Assembly (NCBI GenBank): GCA_013115145.1
Contig: JAAPAO010000160.1
Coordinates: 1,147-59,702 of the forward strand
Direction: 5' to 3'
DNA from: Perkinsus chesapeaki
Lineage: Eukaryota; Perkinsozoa; Perkinsida; Perkinsidae
DNA length: 58,556 nucleotides
Shown: positions 3,701 through 56,332 of the stretch, one piece after another
Layout: each line of letters opens with the position of its first letter
Numbering within the stretch: the stretch's first letter is position 1
The notes under the pieces: generated by a model
Seen by the model: only the letters and a program-made list of their open reading frames with translations
What the model was told of the DNA's origin: nothing
Databases searched by the model: none
Program-made: the position numbers and the translations under genes

Positions 3701-4606
3701 GGAGGATCCACGGGAACGGTCGGCGACACTGCAAGCTATGAATGAGATTATTGGTACGTGTAGCGGCTGCGGGGTGTGTGGAAGGGACCTTCTTCTAGGT
3801 ACGTTAACTCGGTATTGCGGCGGCTCGGCTGCGGTAACCTCAGAAGTGTTGGACGCTCTTACTTTGGATCCGAGTGTGGAAGGGGACGATGGCACGATGG
3901 TGGATATGGGCACTTTAAAGCCGATGGTCGGAGGTTCGAATCGAGGCCTCGGAATTTTGGTGTCTCCGCAGATAAGAGTTTTACTGAAGAACACCTCGCA
4001 GAAATGCTCAACGTCGCTCGACAATTTACAGCAAGATAAAGAGGAACTCCAGCGAATGCGACAGGAAGTAAAAATGACAAAGAAAACACATATTCTGAGC
4101 GGAGCGATGCACCCAGGTCGAGAGCCTCAGAACTACGGCCAGGGTTTTCAATGGTCGAGAAGGAGGTGGTTCACCGAAGTGTGCCGAGTGCGGGCAAAGA
4201 ATGGATCTTCCGGCCGTAGGTGTACCCGCCCCACGGGCCCATCCAGAAGTCCGTTGGCAGGTCCACTTCATGTGTATGCATTCGTTTCATCAATTGTGTC
4301 TATCTTCTGATAACAGTGATGAGGAGTACAAGTGCCCATTGTGTCAACCGGAGGCTCTGTAGGCTATGTTCGGGAGCACGTACTAGTTTGAAGGTGGTGT
4401 CTATCAGATACAAGGAGACAACGAGGATGCAAAGGGAAGAGTCGGTGAAGGATCCAGAAACTCTCTCGACACTGTGGGATCGAACGCATGTATTTTTATA
4501 CCAACTTTTCCTCAGATACAAGGCGATCGGTGCCTCCCCGGAAGATTTTTCGATTATTGCGGACTACCTTGGCCGCGGTCTGTTCCATACTAGCACTGAT
4601 TCGTGA
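787..4606 (+). CDS. VPS11: VPS11-like HOPS/CORVET subunit (many exons, 5' part unresolved)
   Basis: Subunit of the HOPS/CORVET tethering complexes acting in endosome-to-vacuole traffic. Several exons match the family in order. The 787-924 exon carries HEKAITEEVSMLQQKGMYES, the start of the clathrin-repeat region. The 1800-1931 exon contains LERLVELLTRKD. The block at about 3170-3340 contains LELCLRSGLQRKDEESRERM, and the 3618-3740 exon contains RRLWLQALRKL. The 3972-4060 exon contains FTEEHLAEMLNVARQ. The 4150-4363 exon encodes a RING finger (CAEC, then MCMHSFHQLC, then CPLC). The last exon ends in SIIADYLGRGLF, the conserved VPS11 C terminus, with stop at 4604-4606. One clear intron is 3874-3971. 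A 28-nt GT-AG segment separates the RING exon from the last exon. Exons between about 930 and 2860 are only partly resolved, and the WD40-type N terminus lies further left or is unrecognised. A tRNA-Val gene lies in one intron. Confidence 0.8.
2722..2795 (+). tRNA. tRNA-Val (anticodon CAC)
   Basis: A complete cloverleaf can be drawn. The 7-bp acceptor stem closes with one G-U pair, and the D arm contains TAGTTGGTTA. The anticodon stem ATCGC/GCGAT encloses loop CTCACAC with anticodon CAC. The T arm is CCGAG-TTCGATT-CTCGG. A T6 run follows within 6 nt and could be a Pol III terminator. The gene lies between VPS11 exons on the same strand, 21 nt upstream of a CTTTTTCAG acceptor, so it is an intron-resident tRNA gene. 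Confidence 0.93.
3874..3971 (+). other. VPS11 intron carrying degenerate tRNA-like sequence
   Basis: A 98-nt GT-AG intron whose removal joins Asp-Pro to Asn-Lys-Ser-Phe-Thr-Glu-Glu in frame. It contains AGGTTCGAATC (about 3934-3944), preceded by CACTTTAAAG, the layout of a tRNA anticodon-loop-to-T-arm segment. The T stem pairs poorly, so this is a relic rather than a tRNA gene. Confidence 0.55.
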
Positions 4607-4705
4607 ACATTGCTACTCGCGCTCACAAGTGTTTCTACCTCCCTCGTCTTGGGTGACCAGCGCGATGGGTGATGGCTTAATTGACAGTTTTTATCGAATA
4701 GTAAA

Positions 4706-6297
4706 ATGTCCGTGGAGCCTGCCTACATCCCAATGGATGCCCGGCCGGAATGGAGGGACACAAAGCCTGTCCCGCAAGATGATGGACCGATGCCTTTGGT
4801 GGAAATACAGTATACGGAGGAGTTCACGGTAACGAGGAGGGAGTCGGGATAGGGATAAATGATCGTCGATGGTTAAGGATACGAGAGAGGTTGGAGCTTG
4901 AAAGATACAAAAAAGGTCGTAGATCGCAAAACAGACTGTGGCGCGTGACCTAACTCTCTTACGCTAGCCCTGTCAGGATATACATAACTACTTCAGAGCA
5001 GTGGTGAAAGCAAGAGAGACAAGTCGAAGGGCATTCAATCTCACAGCTGAAGTTATTTCCCTTAATGCTGCCAATTACAGTGCATGGTACGTCGACGTCG
5101 ATGATTCCTGCTATATTCACTTTCTTTCCTCTCGGCTTTGTTATTAATAATTGATTATATCGCTATATGGTAGGTACTGGCGGCGGAAGTGTCTAGAGGA
5201 TATGGGGGATGATGGCCTACTCCAGGAAGAGCAACAGTTCACCAGTAGCGGCATAATCTCCACCGTCCGATCCAACAGCTTGTTCAGGGGAATGGGCCAC
5301 GGACAGCCCGAAGAACTATCAGGTTTGGTTTCACCGTCGATGGGTGGTCCAACAGCTCTTCGACAAAAAACTTTTAACAGATCCTGATGAGGTGGCGGTC
5401 GAGTCGTATGGCGAATGGCATGCGTATCTTGTCTAATAGGAATTCGAGTTCACTGCGGAGGCGCTGGGCGAGGATGCGAAGAACCTCAACGCTTGGAGCC
5501 ATCGAATGTTCGTGGTAGGTGTTGTTGAGCTTTGATTATATTAGTTGTACTGTATCATCAGCTTCGGCTATTCGGGCGTGTTGATACTGTAGAGGGATTG
5601 GAAGCTGAGTTGGAGTTCAGCGCCGATCTTCTGAGGACAGATATTCGTAACAATTCTGCGTGGAATCATCGCTTTGTAGTCCTACAAATGCTGGCAAAAG
5701 CAGGTAGGCGAGAGGAGGTCGAGGGTTCGATCCCTGGCAACGGTGTTTTCTAGAGCCTGATACTCTTGCGGAGCGACGTGAGGCTGAGATTATTTTCGTC
5801 ATGGAGGCGTTGAAGTTGACGCCGAACAACGAGAGCCCGTGGAACTACGCCTTGGTAGACCTTTTACAGCCGCCGTTCACCCACAGCTGTTTTTGTAGGC
5901 GATCCTTTTCGATTACGCCCCGACTGACCAACAGCAGATTGCCGGTCTAGTGGAGCAGGTCCGATCGTTCGCTACCAAGGTGGGGTGATGCAGCAGCAGC
6001 ACCTTGACCAAGTCGGAAGTCTTTGTTTGTGCCAGTTGGTATGCGACAGTCACTCGACCAGCCTACCCCCGAATAGATTCGCCCTGGAGTTCATGGGACG
6101 TTGTTCATGGAAGTACGACCGAGATCATAATACAGTGAGGTCCATGTATATCATATACATTATATTCTATTGTTCAGGCATTATCCTACTATACCAGCTT
6201 AGCGGACACTGATCGAGTACGTCAAGGGTATTGGTGCCATGTTATGAACAAGATAAGGGGAGAGGAGAAGGAGGCTACCACAGCCACTGGCGTTTAA
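4706..6297 (+). CDS. FNTA: protein farnesyl/geranylgeranyltransferase type-1 subunit alpha
   Basis: Alpha subunit of the cytosolic CaaX prenyltransferases, with a helical prenyltransferase-alpha repeat fold. The start at 4706 gives MSVEPAYIPMDARPEWRD. Repeats are seen in order: RRAFNLTAEVISLNAANYSAW (4985-5085, in pieces), NPKNYQVWFHRRW (about 5310), EFTAEALGEDAKNLNAWSHR (about 5440-5515) and LRTDIRNNSAWNHRF (about 5630-5680). A last block, LTPNNESPWNYAL, lies at about 5815. The C terminus RVRQGYWCHVMNKI fits the family, with stop at 6295-6297. Most introns are 45-50 nt. Apparent in-frame stops near 5430 are removed by an intron starting GTGGCGG just after TDPDE. Intron 5704-5753 carries a tRNA T-arm-like sequence. 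Exon limits between 5880 and 6180 are approximate. Confidence 0.88.
5704..5753 (+). other. FNTA intron containing a tRNA T-arm/B-box
   Basis: A 50-nt GTAGGC...TTCTAG intron; splicing gives LAKAEPDTLAERR in frame. It contains GAGGGTTCGATCCCTGG (about 5721-5737). The AGGG/CCCT stem around TTCGAT and the strict B-box GGTTCGANNCC match a tRNA 3' half. No D arm is present, so it cannot be a tRNA gene on its own. Confidence 0.75.
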
Positions 6298-7452: not shown

Positions 7453-7476
7453 TTTTATCCCCAACCCTCTGGACTT

Positions 7477-13132: not shown

Positions 13133-15793
13133 ATGTTCAAAGGCCCCGTAGGAATTCAATCACTTTTGAAGGACGGTACTCAAAGCTATGCTGGAGTAGA
13201 CGAAGCCCTTTTGAAGAACATCGAGGCCAGCAAATACGTCTCCGAAATAACAAGGGTAAAATCGGCCCGGTCAATATAGCTGTATTTGGTCCCACCCTGT
13301 CAGACATCTTTGGGGCCATGCGGCACTAATAAACTGATTGTTAACCATATTAACAAACACTTTGTAACCAGCGACACTGCTACCGTGCTTAAAGAGCTCG
13401 AGGTAGGATATTATTAAGCTTGTTATCCTCGGCAAACAACAGCCTATATCAGATCTATCATCCAGCTGCCAAGCTTGTGGTGATGGCAGTTCAAGCTCAG
13501 GAGCAGGAATGTGGCGATGGTAAGTGTTATCGCTGCGCTGTAATGCTGCTGTTATGACATCCCTCTTAGCCACGAATTTGGTGTCTATTATTACTGGTGA
13601 GCTGCTGGACAACGCAGAGCAGCTCCTGAAGCAAGGCATTCACGCCTCGGATATCATCCGCGGTTACGAGATGGCTGGTAAGTCCCTCCTTGTTCTATCG
13701 TCCAGGGTAATGGACTTCCAGGCGATCACGTTGTGAAGTGCCTTAACGATAATAAAGATTTGGTGGCTTTTACTTTGGGCGACATGAAGAGCGTCGATCA
13801 AGTAAGCTGGGCTGCTAGTCATGACAATGACTTGCCCTCTTTAGTTGAGCACGATCATAAAGCCCGTGTTGGGCGCAAAGCAGTATGGCCTCGAGGATAC
13901 TCTGGTGGGTTCCGCTCCTCGATATCTTACCCGCACCGCCGCGCATCTTAGACTCGTCTCGTCGCTAAGGCATGCTGCTCGGTGATGCCAGAGGACCCTA
14001 AGAAGTTTAACATTGATAACATTCGGGTAGCCAAGTTGCCTGGCTGTGGCAATATGTAAGCAGAAAAGGGTTAATGGATGCGCCAAACGTCGTCGTCTTC
14101 CTCCTTTAGCCACAACTCTTACGTCGTTGATGGTATGGTAACCACCAGAGATACCATGGGCATCGAGAAGCACAAGAAAAACTGCAAGGTAGGAGGTGCC
14201 AGACAGACAGCGGTGGCCACGGTTCGAACACTGGAGTTGTTCGTCTGTGGCAGGTGGCTGTGTACGGATGTGGCCTTGAGATGACCGGCACCGAAACTCC
14301 TGGTACGGTGTTGCTCGAGTCGGGCAAGCAACTGATGGAGTTCGCCAAGGGGGAGGAGAAAAAGATGGAGGAATTTGTAATTTCGTGGCGAGTGACGATA
14401 AAGCCGCGGAGCTCGGGTTTGATAGGTTAAAAGCTTGGTGGACGCCGGGGTAGAGGCGGTCATCGTCGGAGGAGCTATTCAAGACATTGCTCTTCATTTC
14501 CTTAATAAATATCATATCCTCACGATCAAATGTACGCGCTTCAACCTAAGATACCACTACCGCCGTCATTATTAGGCACCTCTAAATTCGAAATGCGTCG
14601 ACTTTGCTGCACTCTCGGCGCCACCGGAATAGTCCGGCTCGGCGCTCCCCTTCCAGATGAGCTTGGATTCGCCGAAAGTATCGACGTCGAGGAGATTTCC
14701 AGCGCTAAGGTCGGCTGCTTGCCTCATCGTTTCCTTTGCATAGTCGCTCAGGTGACTGTTGTCCGTGCCCCCGATTCGAAGGTCTCGACGATCGTCCTTC
14801 GAGGCGCCACTGCCAACTTCCTTGATGAGGTAATGTTACTGAGGTACTGGGGGGGGGACTGCCAAAGTGGTAGGTTGAGCGAGCAATTGATGATGCTGTT
14901 AACGTCGTCCGGTGCTGTGCTGTGAAGGGACAGAGAGAGTAAGATGCTCCCGCTGGGAATCGAACCTGTGCGGATTACGAGTATGCAGGTTTGTCGTTGG
15001 CGGCGGAGGATGCGAGGTTTCTCTCGGGCTCGATGTTGCCAAGTTCGGTCAGGAGTGCTCTGGTAAGTCGCCCACTTGCTAGTGTCATTAATGTCATCAA
15101 ATCAGGTCTCGAGCAATACGCCGTCCTCAAGTTCGCCGAATCTTTGGAGGTAGTGGCCAATATCATTGCTGAGAATGCCGGTCTGAATGCAATGGATGCT
15201 GTCACCACGTACGTCACCTCTCAACCTGTGTGCGTATCTTCCTGTTCCAGGTTAAAGGCAGCACACGCCTCTGGTCAGACCAAGATGTGCATCGATGTTG
15301 ATGCACCCAATCGTCGGGCCTCACCCATCTGTGATGCTGGTGAGATCGGATAGGGGTCTAAGTTGTAGAGGAATACCAATTTCATTTCAGCCTCTTTAGG
15401 AGCATTCTTCCCATCAAAGTGTTCCATGATTAATCTCCGCAGAACGAGGAGTAGCGAAATTCCTTGACAAGATTTATTGAGTATTTTCTCCGCGAATAGG
15501 AATATTATTTGTCCATTGTGTCTCCTAATGATCTTCGGTGAATCAAGTCTGCGTGAGACGACTGGATTTATCCCTTCTCTTTCGTGTCAGTTTCGAAGAG
15601 TGTCCTCGACCACCGCGGGATCAAATCCTGGGCGATCAGACTGGCCATCGATGCCGTCCTGACCATTCTCAGAATTCAGCACATCATTGTTGCCAAGCAA
15701 GCCGGTGCACCTCAGACCAAGGTACCCAATACATCACCACTCAACACAATATAGCATTGATCTTAGGGAACCCCTTATGTTGATGACGAGTAG
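13133..15793 (+). CDS. CCT8: CCT8, T-complex protein 1 subunit theta
   Basis: Theta subunit of the cytosolic chaperonin CCT/TRiC, which folds actin and tubulin using ATP. All 18 exons can be joined in one frame to 549 residues, the expected length. Exons: 13133-13255, 13304-13402, 13453-13519, 13570-13677, 13722-13801, 13845-13904, 13952-14055, 14110-14188, 14254-14376, 14426-14531, 14576-14709, 14752-14829, 14874-14938, 14989-15062, 15106-15208, 15251-15339, 15591-15721, 15767-15793. Visible motifs are LGPCGTNKLIVNH and TSDTATVLKELE (nucleotide-binding region), QECGDATN (the GDGTN catalytic loop, with G to A), FNIDNIRVAKLPG and FVVGGGG near the C terminus. The last residues are GTPYVDDE. Introns are 42-65 nt except the 251-nt one at 15340-15590. 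Three introns carry tRNA-like or 12-mer motifs. Confidence 0.95.
14189..14253 (+). other. CCT8 intron with B-box-like sequence
   Basis: A 65-nt GTAGGAGG...GTGGCAG intron; removal joins KKNCK to VAVYGCG. It contains CGGTTCGAACACTGG (14219-14233), close to the tRNA B-box GGTTCGANNC but without a paired T stem. Confidence 0.6.
14377..14425 (+). other. CCT8 intron with AATTTCGTGGCG motif
   Basis: A 49-nt intron that begins GTAATTTCGTGGCG and ends TTTGATAG, between codons for EEF and VKSL. The 12-mer at 14379-14390 starts two bases into the intron. Confidence 0.8.
14939..14988 (+). other. CCT8 intron that is an antisense tRNA 3' half
   Basis: A 50-nt GTAAGATG...TATGCAG intron giving KGQREFVVGGGG after splicing. 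Read on the minus strand, it runs CTCGTAATCCGCAC, then AGGTTCGATTCCC, then GCGGGAGCA. That is the order anticodon loop (CGT), variable region, T loop and acceptor end of a tRNA. No 5' half is present. Confidence 0.7.
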
Positions 15794-16545: not shown

Positions 16546-19390
16546 TCAGTGGATGATGGAGGGAGGAATTATGTTACTTCTCGGCGAGGCGTTTGCCGGT
16601 GGCCTTCCAGCCATCATCTGTAGCATCATGATGTTTAACAACGACCATGCAAAACTTCCCATCAACATTTCGAGCCTGATAAGATTCTTCATACTGCGAA
16701 AAGATACGCCGAGTTGAGCGTATCTTACACATTCGCCTTGCTCCAACTTCTCTGGTGTGAGCTCCTTAAAAGATGACGATTTGCTTCTGGCGTGGGATGC
16801 TGGCAGATGAGACGAATCCAACATGGCAACCGTAGCTGCTGCTTACTTAAAACTCTGGTGAAGTATAATGATAGGACATCCTTCGACAGCGTGCTAGTAA
16901 GCTTGTCACCCTGCAAAAACAACAACATGAAGGAAGCAGACACTAGACTGCTGCAATCCGACCTCTAAAGTATCTTCATCAGTAATATGATAGACTGTAG
17001 GAAGCGAAGTAGCATTGATCTTCTTTGCAAGTTCACTGTTCAAATCCGCCGACAAAACCACACCAATACTAATACCTGAGAAACTACCTAATAGGCGACT
17101 TAGTCCCAGCATACTTTTTCTGAAGATCCTCGAATAGGCTTTGATCAGCGCTGGCATAGACTTCTTATCGCTCAACAGTAACACCTTCGCCCGGTCATCT
17201 GCCGATAGCCATCGCTTAAGTGACCTGATAAAAGCCACTGGAAGGGGGCCCCTTCTAGTGTGCATACTTATCCATATGAGATTGGCTTAATAAGGTGGCA
17301 TGGCTCGGCATCTTATCTGAGACCCATCGTGACATCTGCTTGAAGTTACGCTTCTTTGAGGACGGGAACTCAATTGGTTTGTTTTCATCAGGCTCGCCGT
17401 ACCTGATAGGTTGGCACCATCACCGATGCGACGAGTGAGTGATGCACTTGAAGTTGATACGAAGCGGGAAGGTGTCAGGGAGAAGTAGATTCGGCAAATG
17501 CTGAAATGTAACTCAGACCATCGTATAGTCCACCAGTCTCACTGTAGAATGGTTGGCTACGTCTACGCAATGTAATAAAACTACTGTCAGCGACAAAATC
17601 TAAAGTACCGAGAGATATACCTATCCAGAGCGTGCTCGACGATAGTACTCTGCAATGCAGTAATATTAATACTGGCCTGACGAGTCAATACCAGAGTAAT
17701 ATGAAAAGGTATTTCATATTGCCCTCCACAATAGGAATGTTCGTTAAAACCACCGTGCCTGTCGTCGTCGTTGCCCCATAGTAGTACATTCGTATAGTAG
17801 GATACGCCTTTATTCCCGCCTCCTGGCAGATCTCTTGCTGTGCCGCACAGTTCACTGCAGCAATCTGACAAGGAGCCATACAGCAACATGGCCAGGCAAG
17901 GAACGCGTCGATCATCTAATCGGCCCCCCCCCTCGAAACGAGTATCATCCGAGGCATCTTAGTAAGGCTAGGAGAAGCCCTGGGCTGTTACCGTGATAAT
18001 GCCTTCATATGCATCGGCAAGCTTCTTATAGTCATTAACAACCTCCCTGAAAGTAATAAGGGGTAATTCTTGCGCGCCACGAAATTGCCTACTTGCAATG
18101 GGCACATCCCGGAGAATAAAAATTAACTACAACCGGTTCCTCACGCTCGCTCACTGAAAGGAAAGACATAATTTCGTGGCGCAGTGAGAAATACTATTAC
18201 CTAGGACTTCCCAGTTTGTATCCGATACCTCCAGCACTGAACCCTCATCGTAGAGATTCTGAAAGATACCAAATGAGGTCGAATGCAAAAGATACCTCTG
18301 CGCACCACGAAGAATTTTACCGAAGCTCTGTAATTTACCGAGAAAGCATCTAGTCCATCCCAAAGATATGTTTGAGGTTGATTGAAGAATACATGCGCCC
18401 CATTTTATAGATGATATTCAATATATGATATGCTACTTAACCGAGCAACTATAATCGTAAAAAGGCACCTGTGCTTTCGCTACATTAGCTTTACCAAAGC
18501 GCATCTTAACTGGAAAACAGGATAGTCTTTTTTAAATTAGACCATAGTCTTATTACCTTCGCTGGTTGTTGATGGTGCGCCCTCCTACCTCCTCCAGCAC
18601 CCCCAAAACCACCAAACCCTCCGCTGCCTCCACCGAACCCACCAGAACCAAATTCAAAATGAAAACTACCGCCGCTGCCACCTGCCCCGCCTTGTCCGAA
18701 GAACGCACTGAACAACATATCCCTCCACGAAGGCAGCAGTTGTACTACTTGAAAATATCTTCAGGTCTAACGTTGAAGCCGCCTCCCCCACCAGGACCTC
18801 CCGGGCCTCCTCCTGCACCTTGCTTTAAGCCTTCTTCGCCTGCAGAAATTACACGTTGGGTAAATCCCTTCGCCAAGACACTACCGTATTGGTCGTAAAT
18901 TTTCCGTTTTTCCGGGTCTGACAAGGCCTCGTAGGCCTCGGAGATATCGTAGAACTTCTTCTCGGCTTCCTCTTTATTATCACTAACAACCCAAAGGTCC
19001 CCGGTTCGAATCCCCCTGGATGGTAATTACGCATTTTTATCAGGATGCCACTTTAAAGCAGCCTTCCTATACGCCGCCTTAATCTGGCTTTCGCTCGCTG
19101 TTTTGGGTATACCGAGTATCTGATTGGATCCCATCAAGTAACATCGGACACTATTTTAGTGTAGTGTTGGTCCAGAGATATATGATATTCGCACGGAGTC
19201 AGCCACGATTTGCCCCTTGTTTCAAAGACCGAGATGGATAGAACGACAGAGGAGAACAATCGTAATGGTCGCGGGTCAACCTAAGATACGTCCAGGCCGA
19301 TAGGGTCACCTTATAAAAGTCCTTTCCACACTGAACGAGGCCAATTAGTCCAACATATATTAATAGTAGTATATAACGCAGTATGAACAT
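16546..19390 (-). CDS. ER DnaJ-thioredoxin membrane protein (DNAJC16-like)
   Basis: A J-domain co-chaperone with a thioredoxin fold, expected in the ER lumen with a membrane anchor. The start at 19390 gives a signal peptide ([21 protein letters not shown]) followed by GKDFYK. After introns 19120-19309 and 18983-19030 the J domain reads [27 protein letters not shown] (HPD motif), then [21 protein letters not shown] long Gly/Phe region follows (18508-18870). The thioredoxin domain has [13 protein letters not shown] (18096-18135) with CxxC, continued by [14 protein letters not shown] and [12 protein letters not shown]. Downstream exons (about 16930-17260) give a second thioredoxin-like stretch, [11 protein letters not shown]...[12 protein letters not shown] hydrophobic segment ([19 protein letters not shown]) lies near the C terminus. 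The exon just after the Gly/Phe region and several between 17000 and 17600 are not fully resolved. Two introns carry the 12-mer motif and one a tRNA half. Confidence 0.85.
18047..18092 (-). other. intron with AATTTCGTGGCG motif (sense)
   Basis: A 46-nt GTAGGC...ACTTTCAG intron between CAHCK and EVVNDYKK. The 12-mer starts six bases after the donor, at 18086 down to 18075 on the minus strand. Confidence 0.8.
18154..18200 (-). other. intron with AATTTCGTGGCG motif (antisense)
   Basis: A 47-nt GTAATAG...CTTTCAG intron joining TNWEVL to [10 protein letters not shown]. The 12-mer is present in reverse orientation relative to the gene (plus strand 18170-18181). The next intron of the same gene, one exon away, carries it in sense orientation. 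Confidence 0.8.
18983..19030 (-). other. intron that is an antisense tRNA 3' half
   Basis: A 48-nt GTAATTACC...TGTTAG intron inside the J domain (HPDKNA to DNKEEAEK). On the plus strand it reads AACAACCCAAAGGTCCC, then CGGTTCGAATCCCCC, then TGGA, a tRNA variable-region/T-arm/acceptor order with a strict B-box. The T stem is imperfect. Confidence 0.72.
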
Positions 19391-23100: not shown

Positions 23101-24273
23101 GCCCAGGATCGAACCCGGGTCATTTGACGGGCTTACTCGTCTTCTACCGCGCGACTAACTAAGCTATCTTTCAGGGCGATATACTCACGCCTTTGATGAG
23201 CTTCTTGCCCGTGAGCTGCCAGATTTGCGAGACCACTTCATGGATGAGGGCGTCCAACCAACCCTTTACATCCACCAATGGTAGATGCCATACCGTCCCT
23301 TCGCGGACTCGTCCCCCTACTCAGGTACCTTTCAATCTTCATAAACTGTCTTCCGCTGCATACAGTAATATGATCCTCGTCCTCCTCGGCTACCGCCGTC
23401 TCATTCATTTCCTCAGGTGCTGGTGCTATGGGATGTCATTGTTAGTGACGGTCTGCCGGTGATACTGAGCATCTCTATTGCTCTGCTGAAGGTATAACCA
23501 AAACCGCCCAGGGGTTCATGAACTATCTCGCTGGGGACATTTATACCGCCTCACATAGTTCGCTGGGCGGGAAGCTTCTTCGGGAAAGCTAAGAACAACG
23601 GCTCTATCCTGGAGCTGATTACAGTCAAACTGGCTTCCGAGATCTAATAGTCTGTTCTCCGAGTGAACTGCAAGTGCGCGGAACGGAGCGTCACTAATCG
23701 GATCTCTTCGGGTTTCGAGGGGCCGATCAGAAGCATCTCGTATGGATTGAACTCGACTTGGCTTGGAAAATGGCTCACTTTATTAATTGGATCCTGATCA
23801 TTGTTGTTGTTAGTTGGCTGGTTGTCAGGTATTGAGGCCGGCTCTCATGCAAATGGAGTTTGAGGACATTGTGCGATTTTTCAAAACGATGAAAACCGGT
23901 AGTGCCGTCCTTTCCTGCTACCCTTGCGAGTGACGTCTCAGGTGACGAGAAATGTGACGCTACGGTGATTGGGCAACTTCTAGTGCGACTCTCCGGAAAG
24001 GTTGATATCCCAGACTCCATCCTAGAGTCTCTTCATCTACCCTATGATTGTCAAGACCCTCGCAACACCGAGCCGCCTAGCATAATGCCCGGGCCCGGCG
24101 ATCTAGATCGGACTTCGCCAGCTCCCAACGACGACAAACCGGTGGCCGGTGTGGCGCAGTGGTTGAAGCGAGTATCCGCACAGATCGATGCGAGTTGGAG
24201 CGAACTGAAGGGCGGCTTGGGCGGCGGAGCATCTTCTAGCAGCGATCGATTGTCATCCGATGAGACTGCATGA
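20134..24273 (+). CDS. TBC domain protein (Rab GTPase-activating)
   Basis: The TBC domain accelerates GTP hydrolysis by Rab proteins. The N terminus (20134-20287, 20328-20761) is low-complexity Pro/Gln/Ser with DDDDDGH. The domain exons are 21209-21412 (RRGIPAEYRWTVWKACV), 21614-21670 (VPRTFP), 22680-22794 region ending 22784 (LYRILVAYANLNPDVGYCQG) and 22921-23002 (EEVFWVFVCLMEYDGLAGFY). They continue with 23175-23280 (AFDELLARELPDLRDHFMDE), 23325-23364 and 23417-23491 (VLVLWDVIVSDG). The motif B Gln (YCQGMNF) is present. The motif A Arg position is less clear: IKIDVPRTFPRDQ has the DVPRTFP core with Arg. The tail 23951-24273 is disordered and ends SSDRLSSDETA. Exons between 20762-21208 and 23492-23950 are uncertain. 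Intron 21671-22679 holds a transposon; introns 22785-22920 and 23003-23174 hold tRNA-like sequence. Confidence 0.88.
21692..22639. mobile_element. non-autonomous hAT-like DNA transposon inside a TBC-gene intron
   Basis: 948 bp bounded by terminal inverted repeats CAGGGTTGT(G/C)GA...TTTCA and flanked by a perfect 8-bp duplication ACTCGGTA (21684-21691 and 22640-22647). An 8-bp duplication with CAGGG termini is the hAT hallmark. Both ends carry repeated GAAATTTC palindromes, typical of subterminal transposase-binding clusters. No transposase frame is present. Removing the element plus one duplication restores a 53-nt GT-AG intron (GTACTACTG...CACTTCAG). Confidence 0.9.
22785..22920 (+). other. 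TBC-gene intron with tRNA T-arm
   Basis: A 136-nt intron between VAGLLLL and EEVFWVF. It starts GTAACATCACCCGAGTTCGATCCCTGG, here described in parts: a T-arm-like AGTTCGATCCCTGG lies only about 15 nt after the donor. Confidence 0.6.
23094..23167 (-). other. full-length degenerate tRNA-like sequence (intronic, antisense)
   Basis: Lies within the 172-nt intron 23003-23174, antisense to the TBC gene. On the minus strand it shows D-arm-like TTAGTTAGTCGCGCGGTAG, an anticodon-type hairpin GACG...CGTC and the T arm CCGGGTTCGATCCTGGG. The acceptor strands (GATAGC and GCTACTG) pair only in part and the anticodon loop has eight bases. I read it as a tRNA pseudogene or tRNA-derived repeat, not a functional tRNA. 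Confidence 0.7.
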
Positions 24274-25605: not shown

Positions 25606-25653
25606 TCAACCCTATCTTCTCTCAAGGACTATAAGTAGCTAGTAACACATAAT

Positions 25654-28181: not shown

Positions 28182-29179
28182 TCAAGTCCAGAGTAGAAGC
28201 CTTTTGTTGATCTCTCATGCCTCCTGCGTGTTACTAAGAAGCCGCTAATACCTCACTTGGTTAAGGATCTGGTGAACATGGTCATGGTGACCGCTAACTA
28301 GCGTTATACTACAGCTCGGTGTAGTTGTATACAATAACGTACAGTGTTTACGGCCGTAAGAAGTTCTCGTTAAGAGCTATAGCTCTACTGAGAATTTATT
28401 TGGGTCATGGGGTATGTGACACTCATTATACGACCGATGACTCATCGACGTATATCAATTCAATATTTGACTATCCACAATTGCCTATTGGGTAGCCTAT
28501 GAGTAGGCACACACCAAAGGGTGGAACTTATCATGAAGTGCTGATATTGTTATGGCCGGAAGAGATCTAGGTATCCCGATCGGTGGAGGGATGGCGTTAT
28601 GCCATGGCAAGATATGGCTCTCTAAGAGTATCGAGAGGCCTCTTGCGAACACGTCGCTCAAAAAATCGAAGGTTCTTCCCCTACCGATTCCCACTTCGCT
28701 TCGCTGATATAGGGAGAGCAGGGTAAGCCACGGGCTATTGGAAAGGCCAGAATATTGCGATGCATTTTGACGACAGCCTAGGCCATGACCATTTGATATC
28801 GATCCTACTTTGTTCGACAAACTTTCGACTACTTTGTTACTTATTGTCATTCTTGGTTAAGATGATGTCAAACTTCGACCCGATCTTTTCTACTTGTGTC
28901 AAACATCGATACTTATTGTCATTTTTGGGGGAGACATTGACACTGTCAATGCCTGAGCATTTGTCAAACTTGCACGGGAAAAGGTGTAGAAAGACGACTA
29001 CAGTGCATAAGTACATGCTTGTACCAAATACAACATACGTAGGTCATATGAAGCTGAATGATAGGATGCATGCATAACTATATGGCAGTTCTAGGCTCCA
29101 ACTGAGAGCACTTATCAAGGAATTGACTTTCTCTTCAGGTCGAAATTGGGGTAGTCTCCTGAATAGAGAATAAAACATT
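28182..29179. other. intergenic, upstream of FAD oxidase copy 1
   Basis: No gene recognised. Two imperfect copies of a sequence containing TTATTGTCATT(C/T)TTGG preceded by GTCAAAC lie at about 28800-28870 and 28885-28945. Confidence 0.45.
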
Positions 29180-29261
29180 GACAGTGTGTCCGAGTGGTTA
29201 AGGAGGTGGACTCGAAATCCACTAGGCTCAGCCTGCGCAGGTTCGAATCCTGCCGCTGTCG
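29180..29261 (+). tRNA. tRNA-Ser (anticodon CGA)
   Basis: Complete type II tRNA. The acceptor GACAGTG pairs with CGCTGTC (one G-U) and the discriminator is G. Anticodon stem GTGGA/TCCAC holds loop CTCGAAA with anticodon CGA. The long variable arm is AGGCTCAGCCT, and the T arm GCAGG-TTCGAAT-CCTGC is perfect. No intron. It lies 8 nt from the stop codon of the convergent minus-strand gene. Confidence 0.96.
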
Positions 29262-29269
29262 TTTGAGGA

Positions 29270-32797: not shown

Positions 32798-34507
32798 TTA
32801 TGGCATTCTACAGTCGAGCTCGATAGTGAAGTTGCTGATGCGGGCAAAGTCGAACATATCGATAGCATTATACTTGCACTTCACGTCCTGCAACCTCTCA
32901 TATGTTCCAATATGAGGGAAATAACGAGGAATCCATTCCTCTCTGGTCATGGTATCTTCAAGATAGTTCTGATACTTCGTATTTGTAGTGTATGGTTCGA
33001 TAGCTGAAGAGAATTCACCGAGCCATGGCCTAGCAGTCTTTGAAGGATCTTCGCCTGGCTTGAGGAAAATACCATGTTCAATGGAGAAACCTCGCTGACG
33101 ATGATCAAAAGCAGTGCACTTTTCTGTGGTCGTGCAATCTTCCGGTTCCTTCAGCATGTTATGTGTGTAGGGAAGAATGTATTGGTAACAACCAGACTCA
33201 CCACAGGTTGGGCTGAACATATGGTCAACCATGATGTCTACTGCTTGTGCGTCAACTTCAGATGGATAGTAGTACTGCATTTGGATCCATTGGAATATCA
33301 CGTGAGTTTCGATCTTGAGACAAGCAGCCATTGCCTTTTCTACATCTTTCAACGGAGTATCAGGTATACCAGCAGGAGGATAGACACTCCCACACTGCAT
33401 ACTAGTCCATTGAGCTTCAACAAAACTCATTTCTTTCATATCAGGGAAGAGTCCAGTAGTGTTGGTCAATCCTGTACTGTTCCTGAAGGCTTCAGTGACC
33501 CTCTGGCAATGTGTACAATCGCCACCACCCGAGCTGCCGCATTGACAGAGAGACATATAGTAGGCCAGACATCGGGGCGTGGAATACCCAAGTATGAGGG
33601 TTGCACTGAACTCAGCCGGCGTTGTTTCCGATTGCACAAAGTCAAGATAAGGTTCCATGTAACCAGCATACTCCGATTTGTTGCATTCACTGAGACCACC
33701 TGAAGAGAATAGCACTTTATCTGCTATAAAGGCCTTATAGTAGAAGTTGGTGACAACACCGTAGTTACCACCCATCCCACCACGAATAGCAAACATAAGA
33801 TCTGCATACTCATTAGTTGTTGTAGCATGGACAACTCTGAATACCTCGATTGAGTTATCAAAGATAACGACATCTGCAGCGATAGTACGATCAACAGCTA
33901 TACCATATTTGGAGCTCATCACACCATGACCACCACCGGAGATGAAACCACCGATACCAGTGGACGGGGAGAAACCACCAGCGAAGCCGAGAGGTGGATC
34001 GTGATAAGCCATGAAGGTGTAAACTTCAAGCAAGTCGAGGCCTCCACCTAATTTGGCAATATATTCATTATCCACCAAATCCACTTTAAAATCCTTCAAG
34101 AGCTGCAGGCTGAGAACGATACTGTTATTGATGGTGCTCTGGCCGATATAGGAGTGCCCAGCACCGCTACGCACGGCAACGGGCACATTGTACTTATGGC
34201 AAATGGTGAGGGCCGACACCACCTGAGTAGTATTCTCGGGGATAACCATCGCTGCGGGGGTGATGTTGTAGCTTGCACCAAACATTTTGAAGAAAGGGTC
34301 TGGAATGCCCTTTGTAATAGTGGCATTCTCAGGGAGCTCCTTTTGTAGTTCAGCAATGGCCTCAGCCAGAGGATCTCCGCTGCAGGCCACTCGCTCGTAG
34401 CACAGGCAAAAGGCTATGAAGAGGCTTGCCAACTCTTGAATGGTCATTTGCGATGAGTAAACAACAGACTGCTGGGCGCTGACGCACGCGTGCCCGAGGT
34501 GACTCAC
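32798..34507 (-). CDS. secreted FAD-linked oxidase (BBE-like), copy 2
   Basis: Paralogue of 26421-28181, 569 codons, single exon. The start at 34447 (MTIQELASLFIAFCLCYERVAC) gives a clean signal peptide; the open frame extends to 34507. The same covalent-FAD His motif (VRSGAGHSYIGQS) and the same Ser in place of the second attachment Cys are present. The BBE segment is RYFPHIGTYERLQDVKCKYN. Identity to copy 1 is mosaic: nearly identical over about residues 45-270 and over the last about 110 residues, but clearly diverged in the central substrate-side region. Gene conversion of the flanks, diversifying selection in the middle, or both could explain this. Confidence 0.92.
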   Translation of the reverse strand: MSHLGHACVSAQQSVVYSSQMTIQELASLFIAFCLCYERVACSGDPLAEAIAELQKELPENATITKGIPDPFFKMFGASYNITPAAMVIPENTTQVVSALTICHKYNVPVAVRSGAGHSYIGQSTINNSIVLSLQLLKDFKVDLVDNEYIAKLGGGLDLLEVYTFMAYHDPPLGFAGGFSPSTGIGGFISGGGHGVMSSKYGIAVDRTIAADVVIFDNSIEVFRVVHATTTNEYADLMFAIRGGMGGNYGVVTNFYYKAFIADKVLFSSGGLSECNKSEYAGYMEPYLDFVQSETTPAEFSATLILGYSTPRCLAYYMSLCQCGSSGGGDCTHCQRVTEAFRNSTGLTNTTGLFPDMKEMSFVEAQWTSMQCGSVYPPAGIPDTPLKDVEKAMAACLKIETHVIFQWIQMQYYYPSEVDAQAVDIMVDHMFSPTCGESGCYQYILPYTHNMLKEPEDCTTTEKCTAFDHRQRGFSIEHGIFLKPGEDPSKTARPWLGEFSSAIEPYTTNTKYQNYLEDTMTREEWIPRYFPHIGTYERLQDVKCKYNAIDMFDFARISNFTIELDCRMP

Positions 34508-35902
34508 AACCTCGTGACACCAACGTAGTGGCGCCCGTAGGCGAACGGACCGACGACCGGGCGGTCAAGTTACGTTTGGGCAATGCTCATCGGCCAGTAC
34601 CGCCCCATCCAGCAGAGGGTGACTCTATGAGGGTCCCAAAAGAAATACAGCGACGTTTCCAAAACGGGTTCGTCTCGGGGTTTTCCTAGCTCTAGCAGCT
34701 CGGGAAGCCATAGACCACCCGGAAGAGGGGCGTTGGAAATTTGGAAATCATTGTTTATTTTCACTCCCGTTTTGCATGGTAGTGGGTACTGTCTAAGGAG
34801 ATTGTTGTGAGAAATTTCGGCCCGATCCCGAGATAACCCGCGGGCCGTTCACAGCAAGCGCTGAGAGCTTATTGTGCTGCGCCAGGGCTACGGGGCACGC
34901 GCCACAGCATTATCTTACACTACATGCTGCAGCACGCAACAAAGCTCTGTCGGCAGCTGCTCAGCTGCATTGCGCCAATGGTTTATACTGAGTGAGCTCA
35001 TTAGCCTTAACACTATATGGCAATCAGTGTAGGTACGATGCATCCTGGAGTTTCAATCTTCCTGGTTGTGCGATTTTTGTTCGCGAGTGTGCGTCTGCGT
35101 GCAGATGTACCCAGCAGATGTCTGTTACAGAGAGGGTTAAGAGTCTTAACCCTTTCTGTCGGATTTAACATGGTGGAGAACCCATCGGCCGCCGATCTGC
35201 AAGCAGATGTAAGCATACACAAATACCATAGATTAAGGATCATCTTAATCCTTTCCGTTGGGTTTAACAGCGAGACGGGTTAACCCTGTTTTCCCCTCAA
35301 GGCATGACTGGCTAGAGCACATACGCCTGAAGCTTCTTCTTACAGTTTCGAAAACTGGATTTGGTGCTTAGTCAAGTCTGTTTCCCAGGGTACCCTCCTC
35401 ATTGGCTGGTCTAGTCCGGATAGGGGACCCATGAAGTCGGGAATCCCGACTCGGGATGTCCGGACTCGCTGCTGACTAGCACCAACACTCGCCAGTTGCA
35501 CTGTGGTATGTTTTTCCACTGATTTCTGACCCGTGGTCAGCTAGGAAAATGGAGCTTGAAAAGCCGTGACAGATAATATCCCTGTTGCAAGGCTAAATTA
35601 TGCAAGCTAAACCTATAAACTTCAACCCATACAGCTCAACAAAGTGAGCTCAAGAGTACTCCACCGCCTTTACCACACCTACCAATAACCCTGCCCTCCG
35701 AGACTATACTGACTAACACAACAATTCTGAAATAATGCCTGGTTTCTATGAACCTAGAGTATATGCTTATGTAGAATAGCAGCAACGCCCTTTCCATCTG
35801 TTTAATGGTGAAATAATATTGTTGGGGCTTACTAGGTCATCGACACTGTGATTGCCATCGCAACCAACAGCAGTCAGACAACAGCTTAATAAACTACAGA
35901 AC
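34508..35902. other. intergenic with duplicated hairpin repeats
   Basis: No gene recognised between FAD oxidase copy 2 and the 3' end of polyubiquitin. It contains two related hairpin motifs about 100 bp apart: GGGTTAAGAGTCTTAACCC (about 35134-35152) and GATTAAGGATCATCTTAATC (35231-35250). Each is followed by CCTTTC(T/C)GT(C/T)GG(A/G)TTTAACA. GTCGGGAATCCCGAC near 35435 is another short palindrome. Confidence 0.6.
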
Positions 35903-37973
<2,071 letters not shown>

Positions 37974-39699: not shown

Positions 39700-42600
39700 A
39701 TGGCAGCCCACCCTACAGGAGACACTGCAGAAGTTAGGAACGTGGACAGCAGCTCAGCGGACTCAGCAGCGTTGCCGGACACTACGGCTGAGATAGGCAA
39801 GGAGCACATGGTCGAAGGCCAACAGCAGTAAGGGGGCAGTTGCACAATCCTAGGGGAATGCTGGTACAGGTACGACATCTGCACCACGGAGGCGCAGACG
39901 AAACATATGAAGGCCAAGGATTTGTATACAGAGGAGTGGACGGAGTAGGCGGGGGGCTTGGAGGTGACCTAAAAAGTATCTTCGGTGCAGATATCAGCAG
40001 AGGGTTAAGGAGGATACCGATTGGCCTAAGGTGGAGGAGTTTGTGAAGGAGTTGTTGGACTGCGACTTGTCCACTGAACAATCCTATAAGGCTGCGTAAT
40101 AAGGAGGGGAGGATCAAATGCAGGAGAAAGATTATTGACCTTTTTTGCTCCTTGAACTGTGAGAAGCTGTAAATCCTTATGATCCCCATGAGTTAATAAA
40201 GCATATTTATTTTTCTGACTGGGAACGCTTTTTCTCGTAAGTTGCTGATCCACGGGAAGCTCTCGGAGGCACAGGTTTCCGCCAGGGTAGCTGAATATGG
40301 CATAGGGAGGGTTCGAACTTGCGCCGATCTGCGTGGGAGTCTTCCGGATTGCCTATCTGAGGTTAATCTGCTGCTCAGATATCGAGGGACGCTGCGGAAG
40401 GCTAAACTTGTGCCCAGCAAGGCTCAGTTGCAGGCGGCATACACCACTCTTGTCACTCGTGGAGACGTCCAAAGGAACGAGCATTTCGAACGTACCGATC
40501 CGTAAAACTCAACCGTCATCGGACAAGATGCTCAGGTATCTTCCTGAAGAAGTCCATACGGTCCAACTCTGGCGTCGTTGTCATCACCATCGTTACTGCA
40601 CCGGGCCCCTTCTCATGCCCGAATGATTGCTACTACTGCCCGAACGAACCTGGGCAGCCGAGGTCGGAGCACGAAAGATTCCCGGAAGGTTGATAGCAGG
40701 CTGTCTGCAGGTCGTATCTTTCCACGGAGCCTGCAGTGGCTCGGGCTAATCAGAACAAGTTCGATCCTGTATTGCAGTTTTGGGATCGGGCCACCACTCT
40801 AGCGAGGCAGGGGCATACTGTAGACAAGGTAAACCAGGAGGTCCCGGGTTCGAAGCTCGGTGAGAGTATCTTCAATCTCGCAGGTTGAGATCATCGTGTT
40901 GGGTGGTACGTGGTCCTTCTATCCGCATGAGTATCAAGAGCAGTTCTGCCGAGACCTCTTCTACGCCGCCAACGTCTTTAATGAGGTGGCAATAGCCAAG
41001 AACAGGAAACTCAGTAAGAGTATTCGCGGGCTCTTTGCGTTTGTCACTGTGAGCGCTCGGGAACAGAGTATTTGCGGGCTCTTTGGAAGTTGTGTATGTA
41101 CTAGACTACTGTGACGTTAGGTGGAGGTACTCCAGCATTCTCCGGACTGCTATTGTAGACTTCCTGAGTCCATGTACAGAGTAATTGCTTGATTGTTTGT
41201 TGAAGGTTCTTAAACTTGTTTGTGACTGGAGAGCGTTCTGCTGCTCGTCGATCCGTACTGGTCCTCTGGAATGTTTCATGGCCCCGTGAACTTCGCATAG
41301 ACTAATCCATCGTTTATTCTACCCACACTTACTAGGAGATTGTCAGTCCACATGGACAAATCAGATCGGTAGCACTCTCACTATGTAGAACAGAAGACGC
41401 ATAAATCTACTCAAGATTCTACTCGGTGCCCGATCATACGGTCCACCCAGATGCCCGAATGGTGAATTGTGTCAGATGTCTCCTCATTGGAAGCCCACAG
41501 CATGCCCTCCTTGAACAGCCTTTACCGCGGTAAGCTATCATTAGAGGAAGAGCAAGTCAGGAATGAAGTTGCCGATTGCAAGATCATTGGTACTAAGGGA
41601 TCATCGGGAGCGGGATAAGATGTCTGGCGGCGGACAGCATGGACAGGTGCAATAGGTATGGCAATACCGCAGAGAGGGCACCGTAGTGGAGATATTTCAT
41701 AAGGGCTACTCCGGTTCAGCGCTAGGGTATCTGCCGCGATTGGCGTGCATTTGTAGACGTCTAAAAATATAGCCTGAGTTGTGCGCGGGATTATTCCGCA
41801 AAGTATGAACCATCCTCATCTATGCATTTCCTTCTGTTTTAAGCTTTTCAACAGAGTTTTAGAATTTGAGAATTTTTGGATCGAAATTTTCTTCTTTTCA
41901 GGTCTGACCTTGGAGACTCGTCCCGATTATATTAATCCAACAGAGCTCAGACGGCTGAGAACTCTGGGATGCACACGGGTGCAGATCGGTGTGCAGCACA
42001 CTGATAACCAAATCCTTAAGACTATCAATAGGTGGGAGCATGCTTCAACCTTGGATATCTATAGCTGTTGCAGGGGACACACTGTGGAAGATTCGATCAA
42101 GGCGGTGAAGCTGCTGAAGGAGAGCTGCTTTAAGGTCGACATCCATCTCATGCCGGACCTGCCTACGTCGGACCCGGAGAAGGATCGAGAGATGTTCCAG
42201 TTCGTGTTGGAGACGCCCTATCTGCAAGCTGACCATTGGAAGATCTATCCATGTGAGGTGACGCCGTTTAGTACTATAGAGAAGTGGTATAGTGAAGGAA
42301 CTTATATGCCTTATACAGAGGTAAGTCTCGGTGTGACTGGAGGCTGGGAAGTGCCTTTGTGATGTAGAAAGACCCGAAGCTTTTGGTGGACCTGCTGGTG
42401 TGGACCAAGGCCAGAGTGCATCCTTGGATACGGTAAGGCGGCTCCCCGCTTGCATTACTCCGGTTGCCGTGGAAGAATGACTCCCACGGCCCATGAATCG
42501 GCCCTCTAGACTGATATAGACGGGCGGAACCTGTCCCAGTATGAACAGACTGGAACGGATCCTGTGCTTTGGCACTGGCTGGCCACACAGAAGATATCGA

Positions 42601-44941
42601 GACCGTCGTCATAGTTAAAGTACTCAGTGCTTGAATCGCTGAAGTCGATCTGGAATCTTCCCCGAAAGTTCCATTCCTAAATAACTTCCTTACGCGCGTG
42701 CTCTTGCACTTGAACCATTTGACCAGTCTCGCCGCCACCGCCGCCGTTTCAGGTTAAACAGAGTTATTCGAGATATTCCTGAAGTTTCTATTATTGCTGG
42801 TAATCAGAATACTAACCTACGTCAAATGGTATTCAAGGAGCTGGCTAAGCAAGGCAAATACTGCAGGTGGGAGGAGGGGCAAATATCTCACCTGGCTTGG
42901 AAAGAGGACTGTGTAAAATTCTAACTGTGCTCCTGAGAAGCACCTTGGGCAATGGGGGTAGCTGGAGCCACTGAAGATTTTCCGATCGGAATTTGTCGAA
43001 ACTTTCCTTCTCTATGGTTGCTCTCCTTAATGGAGCTTAGTCATTCCGGAGCTGGGAAAGGGCGTCTTTGTTCCTCATCACGATGATCCAGGATTCTGGC
43101 AGTTTTCGGAAAAGGAAGAAAATATGCTTTCTACACGGCACCTTTGTGTGTTTCCATACGATGGTCATCGAGCTCCATTCACTTCAGATGCATCCGTTGT
43201 CGAGAGGTCCGAGACTGGCCGGAAGATGAGTCTTTACTACAGCTGGTGAAGCGCTGGTAAGAACTTAGCAAACTTCCTCAACTTTAATCATACTGCTGCC
43301 ATTCATCTACATCATGCGCTCAGTCTTGTCCATTTATAAAACTGCTGCTTTGGGTCCTATTGGGTCGTTTCAGGTATCGTAGTAGTGATGGTGATGAATG
43401 CTTTCTCAGCTTTGAGGGCAGCATAGACAGAGGAGTGTACTAGTATTACTGCTTTATGATGAGATAATATCCTCTGTCGTCCTCAGAGGTGGCGGAGCTA
43501 CAGAGCGAGGTATGAAGAAACGGCAGAAGAAGCAAGAAAAAAAGAGCAAAAAGCAGCGCAGGAAAGATGCCGCCCAGGAGACCACCAGCAGTTCCGCGAG
43601 CTCGGCCATCATGGGCGCCGGAGTGTTCGTTGTGAATAAGCTCAGCGCTGGTGCTGAAAAATGCGGTATGCCGCGGCCGGGGTTCGAACCTGCGTGGTAT
43701 GTTTGCTGCTCGTAGTTGCTGTGCAGCAGGCTGCTTGGAAGTCGGCACGAGCGTGGGTGTTGGGACGCTCGGTTTATGAGAGTCAGCCGAAGGACAATGC
43801 TCCTCTCTATGGATTGCTGCGTCTGCGATTCAACGACAATGGCCTTGAGCAAAAGCACAAGTGACGTGAATGGTGCTGCCACTGTGGGTTTGATCGTCGT
43901 GTCCTGTAGGGTGTTCGCAGAGCTCAGCGGGTGCGCCCTCATCAGAGAGCTGCATGTTTATGGTACTGTACAGGCTGCTAGACAGCACAAAAGCAACCGG
44001 GCGATGAGCCAGGTAGGCAAGGGCAGCAGATTCACGAGAAGCCACTTGACTCGGTCACGACAGCGTTTGACCCGGCGTGAAACTGAGTGCATGGAATGAA
44101 CGAGGAAGATGCTTCCACCAGAGAGCTCGCAATATTTCAGATATCTAATGCTACATCACTGCAGTCCTCTGGTCACGTGTCATCGGCTGCAGGAGGCACC
44201 GATGTGGCTCCGGTTCAACACACTGGTAGGTCTGGCAACACATGAAGTTGTTCAATATTCTGGCCAGGGCTCGGCCGCCGGTTGCTGGCCGAGGCTGAGC
44301 GTATGGCGGTGGAGCGGGGCTACTCTAAGATAGCTGTCATCTCCGGTGTTGGTGTTCGGAACTACTACAGGAAATTCGGGTAAGGGGAGTTGGGCATGCT
44401 CACGTGGTCGGTGGCTATTATTATTCCACCGTAGTGATTAGTGCTGACCTTGTTATATTGCTTGATCTATCTGTACAGTACGTATCATCAATAATAAGGT
44501 TCACCATGCATCATTATACAGTTCAATGTCCACCACGAGTCTTGTAACCATATTCATTACGGACTATTCGCCTCTGCTCACCTGCCTGGGGGATTTTCGC
44601 AAAATTTTGCTCGTCAAGTAGCGTATTTATTTCGACGCTCTGGTGTGGGGGTTGCACAGCTGTTGGTGGGTAATGTCTCTCTCCTTTGCACACTATTATA
44701 TGCCTCAGATACGAGATGCCCAGCGAGGGTGTCGGTCACTTCCTGATCAAGGACCTCAGTGCAGAGCTGAAGGAGCACGAGGCAGCGGTTCGCCAGTTAA
44801 AACGAAGACAAATCCTCCTTGAGACTACCGCAATGGTTGGGGTGAGCTGCCGCCTGCATTAACGCTGAGTATGTCTATGTGTGTCAGCTCGCTGCTGTCT
44901 GCGGTGCCGGCATTGCCTATTTATCTGGCCGCAAACTTTAA
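39700..44941 (+). CDS. ELP3: ELP3 radical-SAM tRNA acetyltransferase with C-terminal membrane tail
   Basis: Catalytic Elongator subunit that installs cm5U-type modification on tRNA wobble uridine. The N-terminal segment ([20 protein letters not shown]) is followed by [12 protein letters not shown] and the radical-SAM motif [16 protein letters not shown] (CxxxCxxC). Next come [36 protein letters not shown] and [13 protein letters not shown]. The KAT domain follows: [19 protein letters not shown] and [18 protein letters not shown] Lys-rich insert ([18 protein letters not shown]) lies just before the KAT part. The last exon adds [16 protein letters not shown] then SGRKL, one hydrophobic helix plus basic end, absent from human and yeast ELP3. 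Resolved introns include 40096-40378, 40829-40883 and 43666-43715, all with tRNA-like motifs. Exon edges at 41080-41540, 42900-43500 and 44000-44260 are approximate. Confidence 0.92.
40096..40378 (+). other. ELP3 intron with B-box-like sequence
   Basis: A 283-nt GTAATAAGG...CTGCTCAG intron joining EQSYKAA to [10 protein letters not shown]. It contains AGGGTTCGAACTTGCGCC (about 40307-40324) next to GGCATAGGGA, resembling the V-region and T loop of a tRNA, with one mismatch to the strict B-box. Confidence 0.55.
40829..40883 (+). other. ELP3 intron with tRNA 3'-half-like sequence
   Basis: A 55-nt GTAAACCAGG...TCTCGCAG intron between RQGHTVDK and VEIIVLGG. The core CCAGGAGGTCCCGGG then TTCGAAGCTCGG has tRNA V-region/T-arm layout with one deviation from the strict B-box. 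Confidence 0.65.
43666..43715 (+). other. ELP3 intron with strict B-box
   Basis: A 50-nt GTATGCCG...TGCTCGTAG intron between SAGAEKC and VAVQQAAWK. It contains GCCGGGGTTCGAACCTGCG (about 43675-43693), a perfect GGTTCGANNCC. Confidence 0.72.
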
Positions 44942-56322: not shown

Positions 56323-56332
56323 CCCGGTAGAA

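Follow-up and report, generated by a model that had tools for sequence, protein, structure and literature searches.

Within a 58,556-nucleotide (nt) stretch of the Perkinsus chesapeaki genome (contig JAAPAO010000160.1; the window, meaning this whole stretch), several short introns of protein-coding genes carry a sequence resembling the T arm of a tRNA, built around the B-box motif GGTTCGANNCC. Genome-wide there are roughly 1100 such elements outside tRNA genes, after subtraction of controls and of about one quarter for tRNA genes. Judged by its letters, the register of the element is that of a tRNA gene from the variable loop to the terminator. We tentatively read these intronic stretches as extended B-box DNA elements, most likely predicted TFIIIC-binding sites of the extra-TFIIIC (ETC) kind, and hold this reading with somewhat less than even confidence. 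The available part of PMC12409998 describes ETC sites as B boxes or extended B boxes without TFIIIB or RNA polymerase III (Pol III), with more than 1800 in human and 8 in yeast, and reports that yeast TFIIIC touches bases downstream of the B box.

The window holds six matches to GGTTCGANNCC, against a mean of 0.29 and a maximum of 2 in 100 dinucleotide shuffles. An excess over chance had been claimed in a sequence-only reading of the window, and it is real; that reading had placed all six strict matches outside tRNA genes, but the one at 29240 belongs to a tRNA-Ser(CGA) gene, leaving five. Two real tRNA genes lie in the window:

2722 to 2795, plus strand: tRNA-Val(CAC) gene, inside predicted intron 2668-2817 of a protein gene.
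29179 to 29262, plus strand: tRNA-Ser(CGA) gene, holding the sixth strict B-box match.

The Rfam tRNA model gave no matches in the window beyond these two, and tRNA-gene scans (ARAGORN, Rfam) ruled out real tRNA genes as the source of the window's intronic sites. In the genome (35.39 Mb, 884 contigs) we counted 1877 GGTTCGANNCC sites against 287 for the reversed pattern, which served as control. Fifty-six distinct strict sites of the 1877 were read, 13 of them inside ARAGORN tRNA genes; sampling followed contig order from the start instead of being random, and the B-box motif had served to select loci L011-L030 and L071-L090. The 169 kb not selected by the non-tRNA motif held 9 strict non-tRNA sites (reversed pattern: 4) and 6 element-like places (reversed: 0), two each in introns, intergenic DNA and exons; element-like here means at least two of C48, three T and Y72-R73. 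By the same definition the 58 kb of the window contained 7 such places, listed in 8 rows, along with 5 strict non-tRNA sites against 0 reversed; the window is richer than the genome average.

In the usual layout, tRNA position 48 is a C, the B box comes next, and an 11-base gap tending to end in Y72-R73 follows, often with a T run after it that resembles a Pol III terminator. When the 44 non-tRNA strict sites (43 places, one palindromic place being entered on both strands) were aligned on the B box, they favoured G45, G46, T47 and C48 (34/44), and downstream W59, Y60, C63, G70, G71, Y72, A73 and T74-77, with little column preference upstream of about position 43; the T loop belongs to the search motif itself, so its presence is partly built in. 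Genome-wide, C48 was present in 1502/1877 sites against 61/287 reversed controls, and TTTT stood exactly at +11 after the motif at 520 sites against 0 in the control. GTAGG-N{2,14}-GGTTCGANNCC occurred 82 times against 4 in the control, real tRNA genes counted in. The T-run register and GTAGG-spaced counts, together with the window and genome counts, ruled out chance as the origin of the excess. The likeness to tRNA genes seen from the sequence alone is thus genuine in its register (C48, B box, 11 bases, T run). When one mismatch was allowed in the B box, the excess over control rose only from 1590 to 2021 (real tRNA genes counted in), which indicates a tightly conserved B box. The T run stands shortly upstream of the AG where the element is in sense; where it is antisense, the complement of the run can serve as the 5' splice site, for example GTAAAA or GTAAGA.

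Introns were predicted with a purpose-built hidden Markov model (HMM), its splice matrices seeded with the ten introns of the sequence-only reading plus generic sites, and retrained six times on all predicted introns. Agreement with the public CCT8 protein P0121 was 14/21 predicted introns, with misses at both ends and at 14532-14656; the HMM over-predicts in non-coding DNA, which makes its intron and intergenic labels soft. The sites of the window and their introns are:

5704 to 5753 (50 nt), plus strand: FNTA intron, sense element, in the order GTAGG, AGGTC, B box at 5724-5734, 11 nt, TTTT, CTAG.
14189 to 14253 (65 nt), plus strand: CCT8 intron with a palindromic TTCGAA site, a weak B-box match.
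14939 to 14988 (50 nt), plus strand: CCT8 intron, antisense element, B box at 14956-14966 on the minus strand, then 11 nt and TCTTAC.
18983 to 19030 (48 nt), minus strand: DnaJ intron, antisense element, B box at 19003-19013 on the plus strand, no T run at +11.
40829 to 40883 (55 nt), plus strand: ELP3 intron, sense element, one-mismatch B box at 40847-40857, TCTT at +11.
43666 to 43715 (50 nt), plus strand: ELP3 intron, strict B box at 43680-43690 on the minus strand, a near-palindrome readable on the plus strand too.
23003 to 23174 (172 nt), plus strand: TBC intron, antisense T-arm-like site at 23102-23118 on the minus strand, no T run at +11.
22798 to 22808, plus strand: T-arm-like AGTTCGATCCC of the TBC gene, in 22785-22920, which is one intron (sequence-only reading) or two (HMM).
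40306 to 40322, minus strand: T-arm-like site AGTTCGAACCC of ELP3, intron borders uncertain.
3933 to 3943, plus strand: one-mismatch site GGTTCGAATCG in the VPS11 region, TTTT at +11, splicing not forced.
24321 to 24331, minus strand: strict B box outside predicted genes, C48 present, in a possible antisense intron GTATATGG..ATATCAG (by eye).

Splicing had been proposed to be forced by the reading frame in these genes, and five of the introns are well supported. The FNTA intron 5704-5753 was predicted by the HMM, and a farnesyltransferase-alpha alignment spans its junction, in a variable-length loop. Both CCT8 introns (14189-14253 and 14939-14988) were also predicted, their junction peptides are present in P0121, and a TCP-1 theta alignment spans both junctions; in the second, the complement of the element's TCTTAC is the 5' splice site GTAAGA. 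In DnaJ, splicing of 18983-19030 restores KWHPDKN, which we take to be a J-domain motif; the HMM placed 19016-19051 instead. The ELP3 intron 40829-40883 was predicted, and a weak 7.9-bit alignment begins two residues ahead of its junction. For TBC 23003-23174 and ELP3 43666-43715 the support is the HMM, which gave identical borders. Three further introns are not forced as originally drawn. At VPS11 3874-3971 the frame stays open without splicing, and one HMM run gave 3927-3971 and another no intron; TBC 22785-22920 was split into introns 22785-22830 and 22876-22920; and the HMM ended the intron of ELP3 40096-40378 at 40285, so that the motif falls outside it.

The elements have been said to differ from one another as different tRNAs do, a claim that failed at the T stem. 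Pairing at the outer positions 49-51:63-65 was 0.425 in the 29 element-like sites against 0.402 with partners shuffled (P = 0.34), and 0.447 against 0.397 (P = 0.098) in all 44 non-tRNA sites, just 2 of which had all three outer pairs together. The ELP3 site at 40847 is an exception, with all five T-stem pairs (G-U allowed). The tRNA genes pair in the T stem in 13/13 cases, much of that stem being required by ARAGORN itself; because ARAGORN searches for the T stem, the partner shuffle is the only fair control. RNA folding did not differ from shuffled sequence, with z = 0.03 ± 0.14 for the 44 non-tRNA sites and −0.70 ± 0.19 for the 13 tRNA genes, and a structure with an alternative T-stem bulge gave no signal either. 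The palindromic place was counted on both strands in the anatomy, 44-site pairing, folding, similarity and A-box tests and collapsed in the 29-site pairing, boundary and location tests. In the 29-site pairing, similarity, A-box, boundary and location tests, element-like means C48 plus at least two T in positions 74-77.

The observation that the elements have no 5' half holds, and the A box is missing too. The best A-box score between −120 and −20 was 2.58, against 2.51 and 2.28 in controls and 12.0 in tRNA genes. The A-box/D-loop pattern TRGYNNAGTGGTTA matched 71 times against 30 in the control; 42 of these were four recurrent sequences, and the remaining 29 match the control level, so diverse 5' remnants are not in excess. 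The strict A-box pattern TRGCNCAGTNGGTNAG matched 15 times against 0, but 14 of the 15 were one identical sequence. Permuted or split tRNAs with the 5' half downstream were rejected, since they would need the paired T stem that the elements lack and since the downstream A-box score (2.51) was close to the upstream score (2.58; reversed 2.28). Chimeric tRNAs were likewise rejected, neither side resembling 17 tRNA halves, an incomplete tRNA set, beyond the column-shuffled level.

These results bear on the suggestion that intron-nested tRNA genes decayed neutrally until the B box alone was recognisable. Real tRNA genes do occupy predicted introns, in the window (tRNA-Val) and at sampled loci L003, L008 and L022, and by eye two predicted introns, L024 and L015, contain an almost complete tRNA-like sequence. 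However, under neutral decay A boxes should survive equally often, and the non-recurrent TRGYNNAGTGGTTA matches sit at control level; nor is an exact B box beside randomised stems neutral decay. We consider this explanation very improbable. The 82-nt predicted intron of L024 (1479-1560) is, by eye, a nearly complete tRNA-like sequence with TTTTTT and CTGTCAG after it, the 5' splice site of the intron lying in the acceptor-stem region.

We then looked for signs of copying. Among the 29 element-like sites the mean best pairwise identity was 21.3/43 against 21.1 when columns were shuffled, with no family consensus; independent columns and unrelated sites are as expected of a recognised motif. Introns bearing elements share the core only, their flanks being unrelated. 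A self-comparison for duplicates with and without the element gave none useful among the 60 longest of 478 matches. Direct repeats at the junctions averaged 2.30 nt in 23 T-arm introns and 2.22 nt in 643 other introns, giving no class-wide target-site duplication; one of the 23, at L019, has a 7-nt repeat. Thus, the elements do not look like recent tRNA-half copies, tRNA-headed short interspersed nuclear elements (SINEs) or neutral remains of nested tRNA genes. The introner of tRNA halves or SINEs proposed from the sequence alone therefore keeps its link to the register of tRNA genes and loses the copies, although an old or unusual way of seeding introns is conceivable.

Outside the window, the 38 strict non-tRNA sites fell in introns 19 times (12.3 expected), in intergenic DNA 9 times (6.7) and in exons 10 times (19.0), and the 24 element-like sites among them 13 (7.8), 7 (4.2) and 4 (12.0) times, respectively; some sampled loci overlap, so these fractions count some DNA twice. 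Exons were depleted, and the 24 element-like sites did not prefer predicted introns to intergenic DNA (odds ratio 1.007, P = 1). On contig C1, with tRNA genes masked, a T-arm matrix at 16 bits or more matched 4 times in introns and 4 times in exons (shuffled contig 1.2), so there is no clear intron preference there. Both orientations occur, as had been noted: 7 intronic elements outside the window were sense and 6 antisense.

Mostly exact B boxes beside unpaired stems, independent columns, strand symmetry and exon depletion fit a DNA-recognition element. Such elements, having no A box, cloverleaf or T stem, would act as DNA, and TFIIIC would bind them as at ETC sites. Selection would be the cause of the B-box conservation, and the elements probably either descend from lost tRNA genes, as relics of their 3' ends, or imitate such ends. 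They sit either way round in non-coding DNA, which here is mostly intron. The genome is intron-dense, and many predicted introns are 40-55 nt, a size at which one element can fill most of its intron.

Short introns also hold other sharply conserved cores, which were found by motif counting in introns and have unrelated flanks. A second core, ATTTCGTGGCG (extended consensus AATTTCGTGGCGCGYGRGAAAT, by eye), has 652 genome copies against 13 in the reversed control; a third, AGCGGAGCGAAGC, has 394 exact copies against 0; and a fourth, TCTGACACCTCTAGCTGT, has 120 exact copies against 0. Examples in the window are:

14377 to 14425, plus strand: CCT8 intron with the second core, ATTTCGTGGCG at 14380-14390.
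18047 to 18092, minus strand: DnaJ intron with the second core, sense, at 18075-18085.
18154 to 18200, minus strand: DnaJ intron with the second core, antisense, at 18171-18181.
370 to 427, plus strand: predicted intron with the second core, ATTTCGTGGCG at 379-389.
4068 to 4116, plus strand: predicted intron with the third core, AGCGGAGCGATGC at 4098-4110 (one mismatch).
705 to 755, plus strand: predicted intron with the fourth core, TCTGACACCTCTAGCTGT at 718-735.

Of the local copies listed, 9/15 for ATTTCGTGGCG, 7/14 for AGCGGAGCGAAGC and 4/4 for TCTGACACCTCTAGCTGT were in predicted introns of at most 58 nt. For the rest, in the same order, the counts were 3, 5 and 0 in intergenic DNA, 2, 1 and 0 in introns above that length, and 1, 1 and 0 in exons; exon rows were listed only up to one mismatch. 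ATTTCGTGGCG and AGCGGAGCGAAGC occurred both ways round and TCTGACACCTCTAGCTGT in sense in 4/4. Further places of AGCGGAGCGAAGC are short introns at L043, L050, L060, L080, L081 and L090, and intergenic DNA on C1 (51 and 84); the four local copies of TCTGACACCTCTAGCTGT, at 718-735 in the window, at 42070 on C1, and at L036 and L076, lie in introns of 42-51 nt. A predicted intron at 41014-41089 contains a near-duplicate of GAGTATTCGCGGGCTCTTTG within itself.

Might the B-box sites be just one of several short dispersed repeat families, with cores of about 12-33 nt, an unknown copying process and an incidental likeness to tRNA? The copy numbers of the three other cores, and their frequency in introns of at most 58 nt, speak for this. 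Against it, those cores are near-identical sequences and are found in intergenic DNA too, whereas the B-box family tracks the tRNA-gene register column by column and so may be a different thing. We regard this as improbable. Pairs of short introns with a 13-mer in common number 45, compared with 2-3 in shuffles, a count to which CAG runs contribute and in which the selection of some loci by the B-box motif inflates the B-box cluster. This sharing and the several conserved cores leave room for a modular intron origin, in which introns would be seeded by a few short modules (a tRNA-3'-end module and at least three other cores of 11-20 nt) as a non-transposon form of intron gain. Each module is present in one hundred to about a thousand copies, often in introns of 42-57 nt and in both orientations; the core would supply splicing signals and the remaining intron would be recruited locally. 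We think such seeding unlikely, if conceivable.

Several observations weigh against the ETC-like reading. The exact T run at +11 and Y72-R73 are tRNA-gene features that ETC sites do not need, which suggests that the elements descend from the ends of tRNA genes or mimic them, and makes TFIIIC binding alone an insufficient account. Sites anchored on the T run with at most one mismatch number 1457 against 42, compared with 520 exact ones; part of this class is T-run variation, and its size means that the unanchored count may overstate how constrained the B box is. The three other intron cores have no known link to TFIIIC. Introns holding T-arm elements are mostly short (10/16 of at most 57 nt), and in 14/16 position 73 is at most 13 nt from the predicted boundary, which falls inside the element in 3 of these, as an element-equals-intron model predicts. 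Finally, sites called intergenic at L074 and L085 read like missed introns, and missed introns among the intergenic calls would shift the balance between introns and intergenic DNA.

Such a model would have short Pol III-transcribed modules of B box and terminator insert into exons either way round and become introns, as an introner made of tRNA 3' ends. A sense insertion would take its polypyrimidine tract from the T run, and an antisense one its 5' splice site from the complement of that run; the B box would be kept because only transcribed copies multiply. In several sampled cases, such as L012 and L019, the element is almost the whole of a 42-57 nt intron. The boundary lies 6-12 nt past position 73, the tRNA-like 3' end, in 11/16 introns and farther off in 2, and the GTAGG-spaced excess (82 against 4, real tRNA genes counted in) and the other core families in short introns point the same way. 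If elements were placed uniformly over intron sequence, such boundaries would be very improbable, although the P value (5 × 10−10) is too small, its null forbidding boundaries inside the element. The same placement would arise from a block of about 30 nt sitting in a minimal intron, which is an argument, not a test, and so the placement is not proof of intron creation. Against the introner stand the unpaired T stem, the lack of families among sampled elements, the lack of class-wide target-site duplications (2.30 against 2.22 nt, with 7 nt at L019 alone) and an equal density in intergenic DNA. We judge it rather unlikely, and tentatively retain the ETC-like reading.

If the elements are TFIIIC elements, Pol III factors would mark about a thousand sites, many within protein-coding genes, of a dinoflagellate relative, which would matter for how chromatin is organised in a group whose chromosomes are unusual. 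Should they seed introns instead, they would represent a new route of intron gain. With several near-invariant intron cores in one compact genome, questions of intron origin and function become testable in either case with the Perkinsus assemblies that already exist.

Other features of the window include a Pao-type retrotransposon at 49782-56565, whose 2097-residue open frame lies between identical 233-base direct repeats (49782-50014 and 56333-56565) and which is probably a recent insertion. Two related FAD-oxidase genes (26424-28181 and 32801-34564) lie on the same strand with 84% DNA identity, and a FAD oxidase has a 58% match to Perkinsus marinus. A polyubiquitin gene (35906-37540) has seven ubiquitin units.

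Among known systems, tRNA genes and relic tRNA loci, of which we take yeast ZOD1 to be one, share the B box and the 3'-end register with the elements described here, which differ in having no A box, T stem or 5' half. The B box is also carried by tRNA-derived SINEs; the elements here have no A-box head and, in the sample, no family consensus. In the titles and opening lines of abstracts of the matches listed for introners, tRNA, intron gain and Perkinsus introns, a set with most subscription papers outside its scope, there was no report of such elements, and the available text of PMC9860276 has no word starting with tRNA or SINE. The introners of Micromonas, Aureococcus and Amoebophrya, as described in the available parts of PMC9860276 and PMC7789003, are alike in being a recurrent sequence class across many introns; the elements here differ in having no shared full-length sequence, no class-wide target duplications and an equal density outside predicted introns. 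Dada transposons insert in tRNA genes of Perkinsus marinus, according to the accessible part of PMC3706591, so that in this genus tRNA genes are involved in a mobile system; our elements have no target duplications and T stems unlike those of real tRNA genes, and no search for Dada sequence was made. The ETC sites of yeast and human, on the same partial source as above, are alike in being B boxes or extended B boxes outside tRNA genes at many sites. The P. chesapeaki elements differ from them in the T run at +11, in favouring tRNA positions 45-48 and 72-73, and in lying, in many cases, in introns of 42-57 nt.

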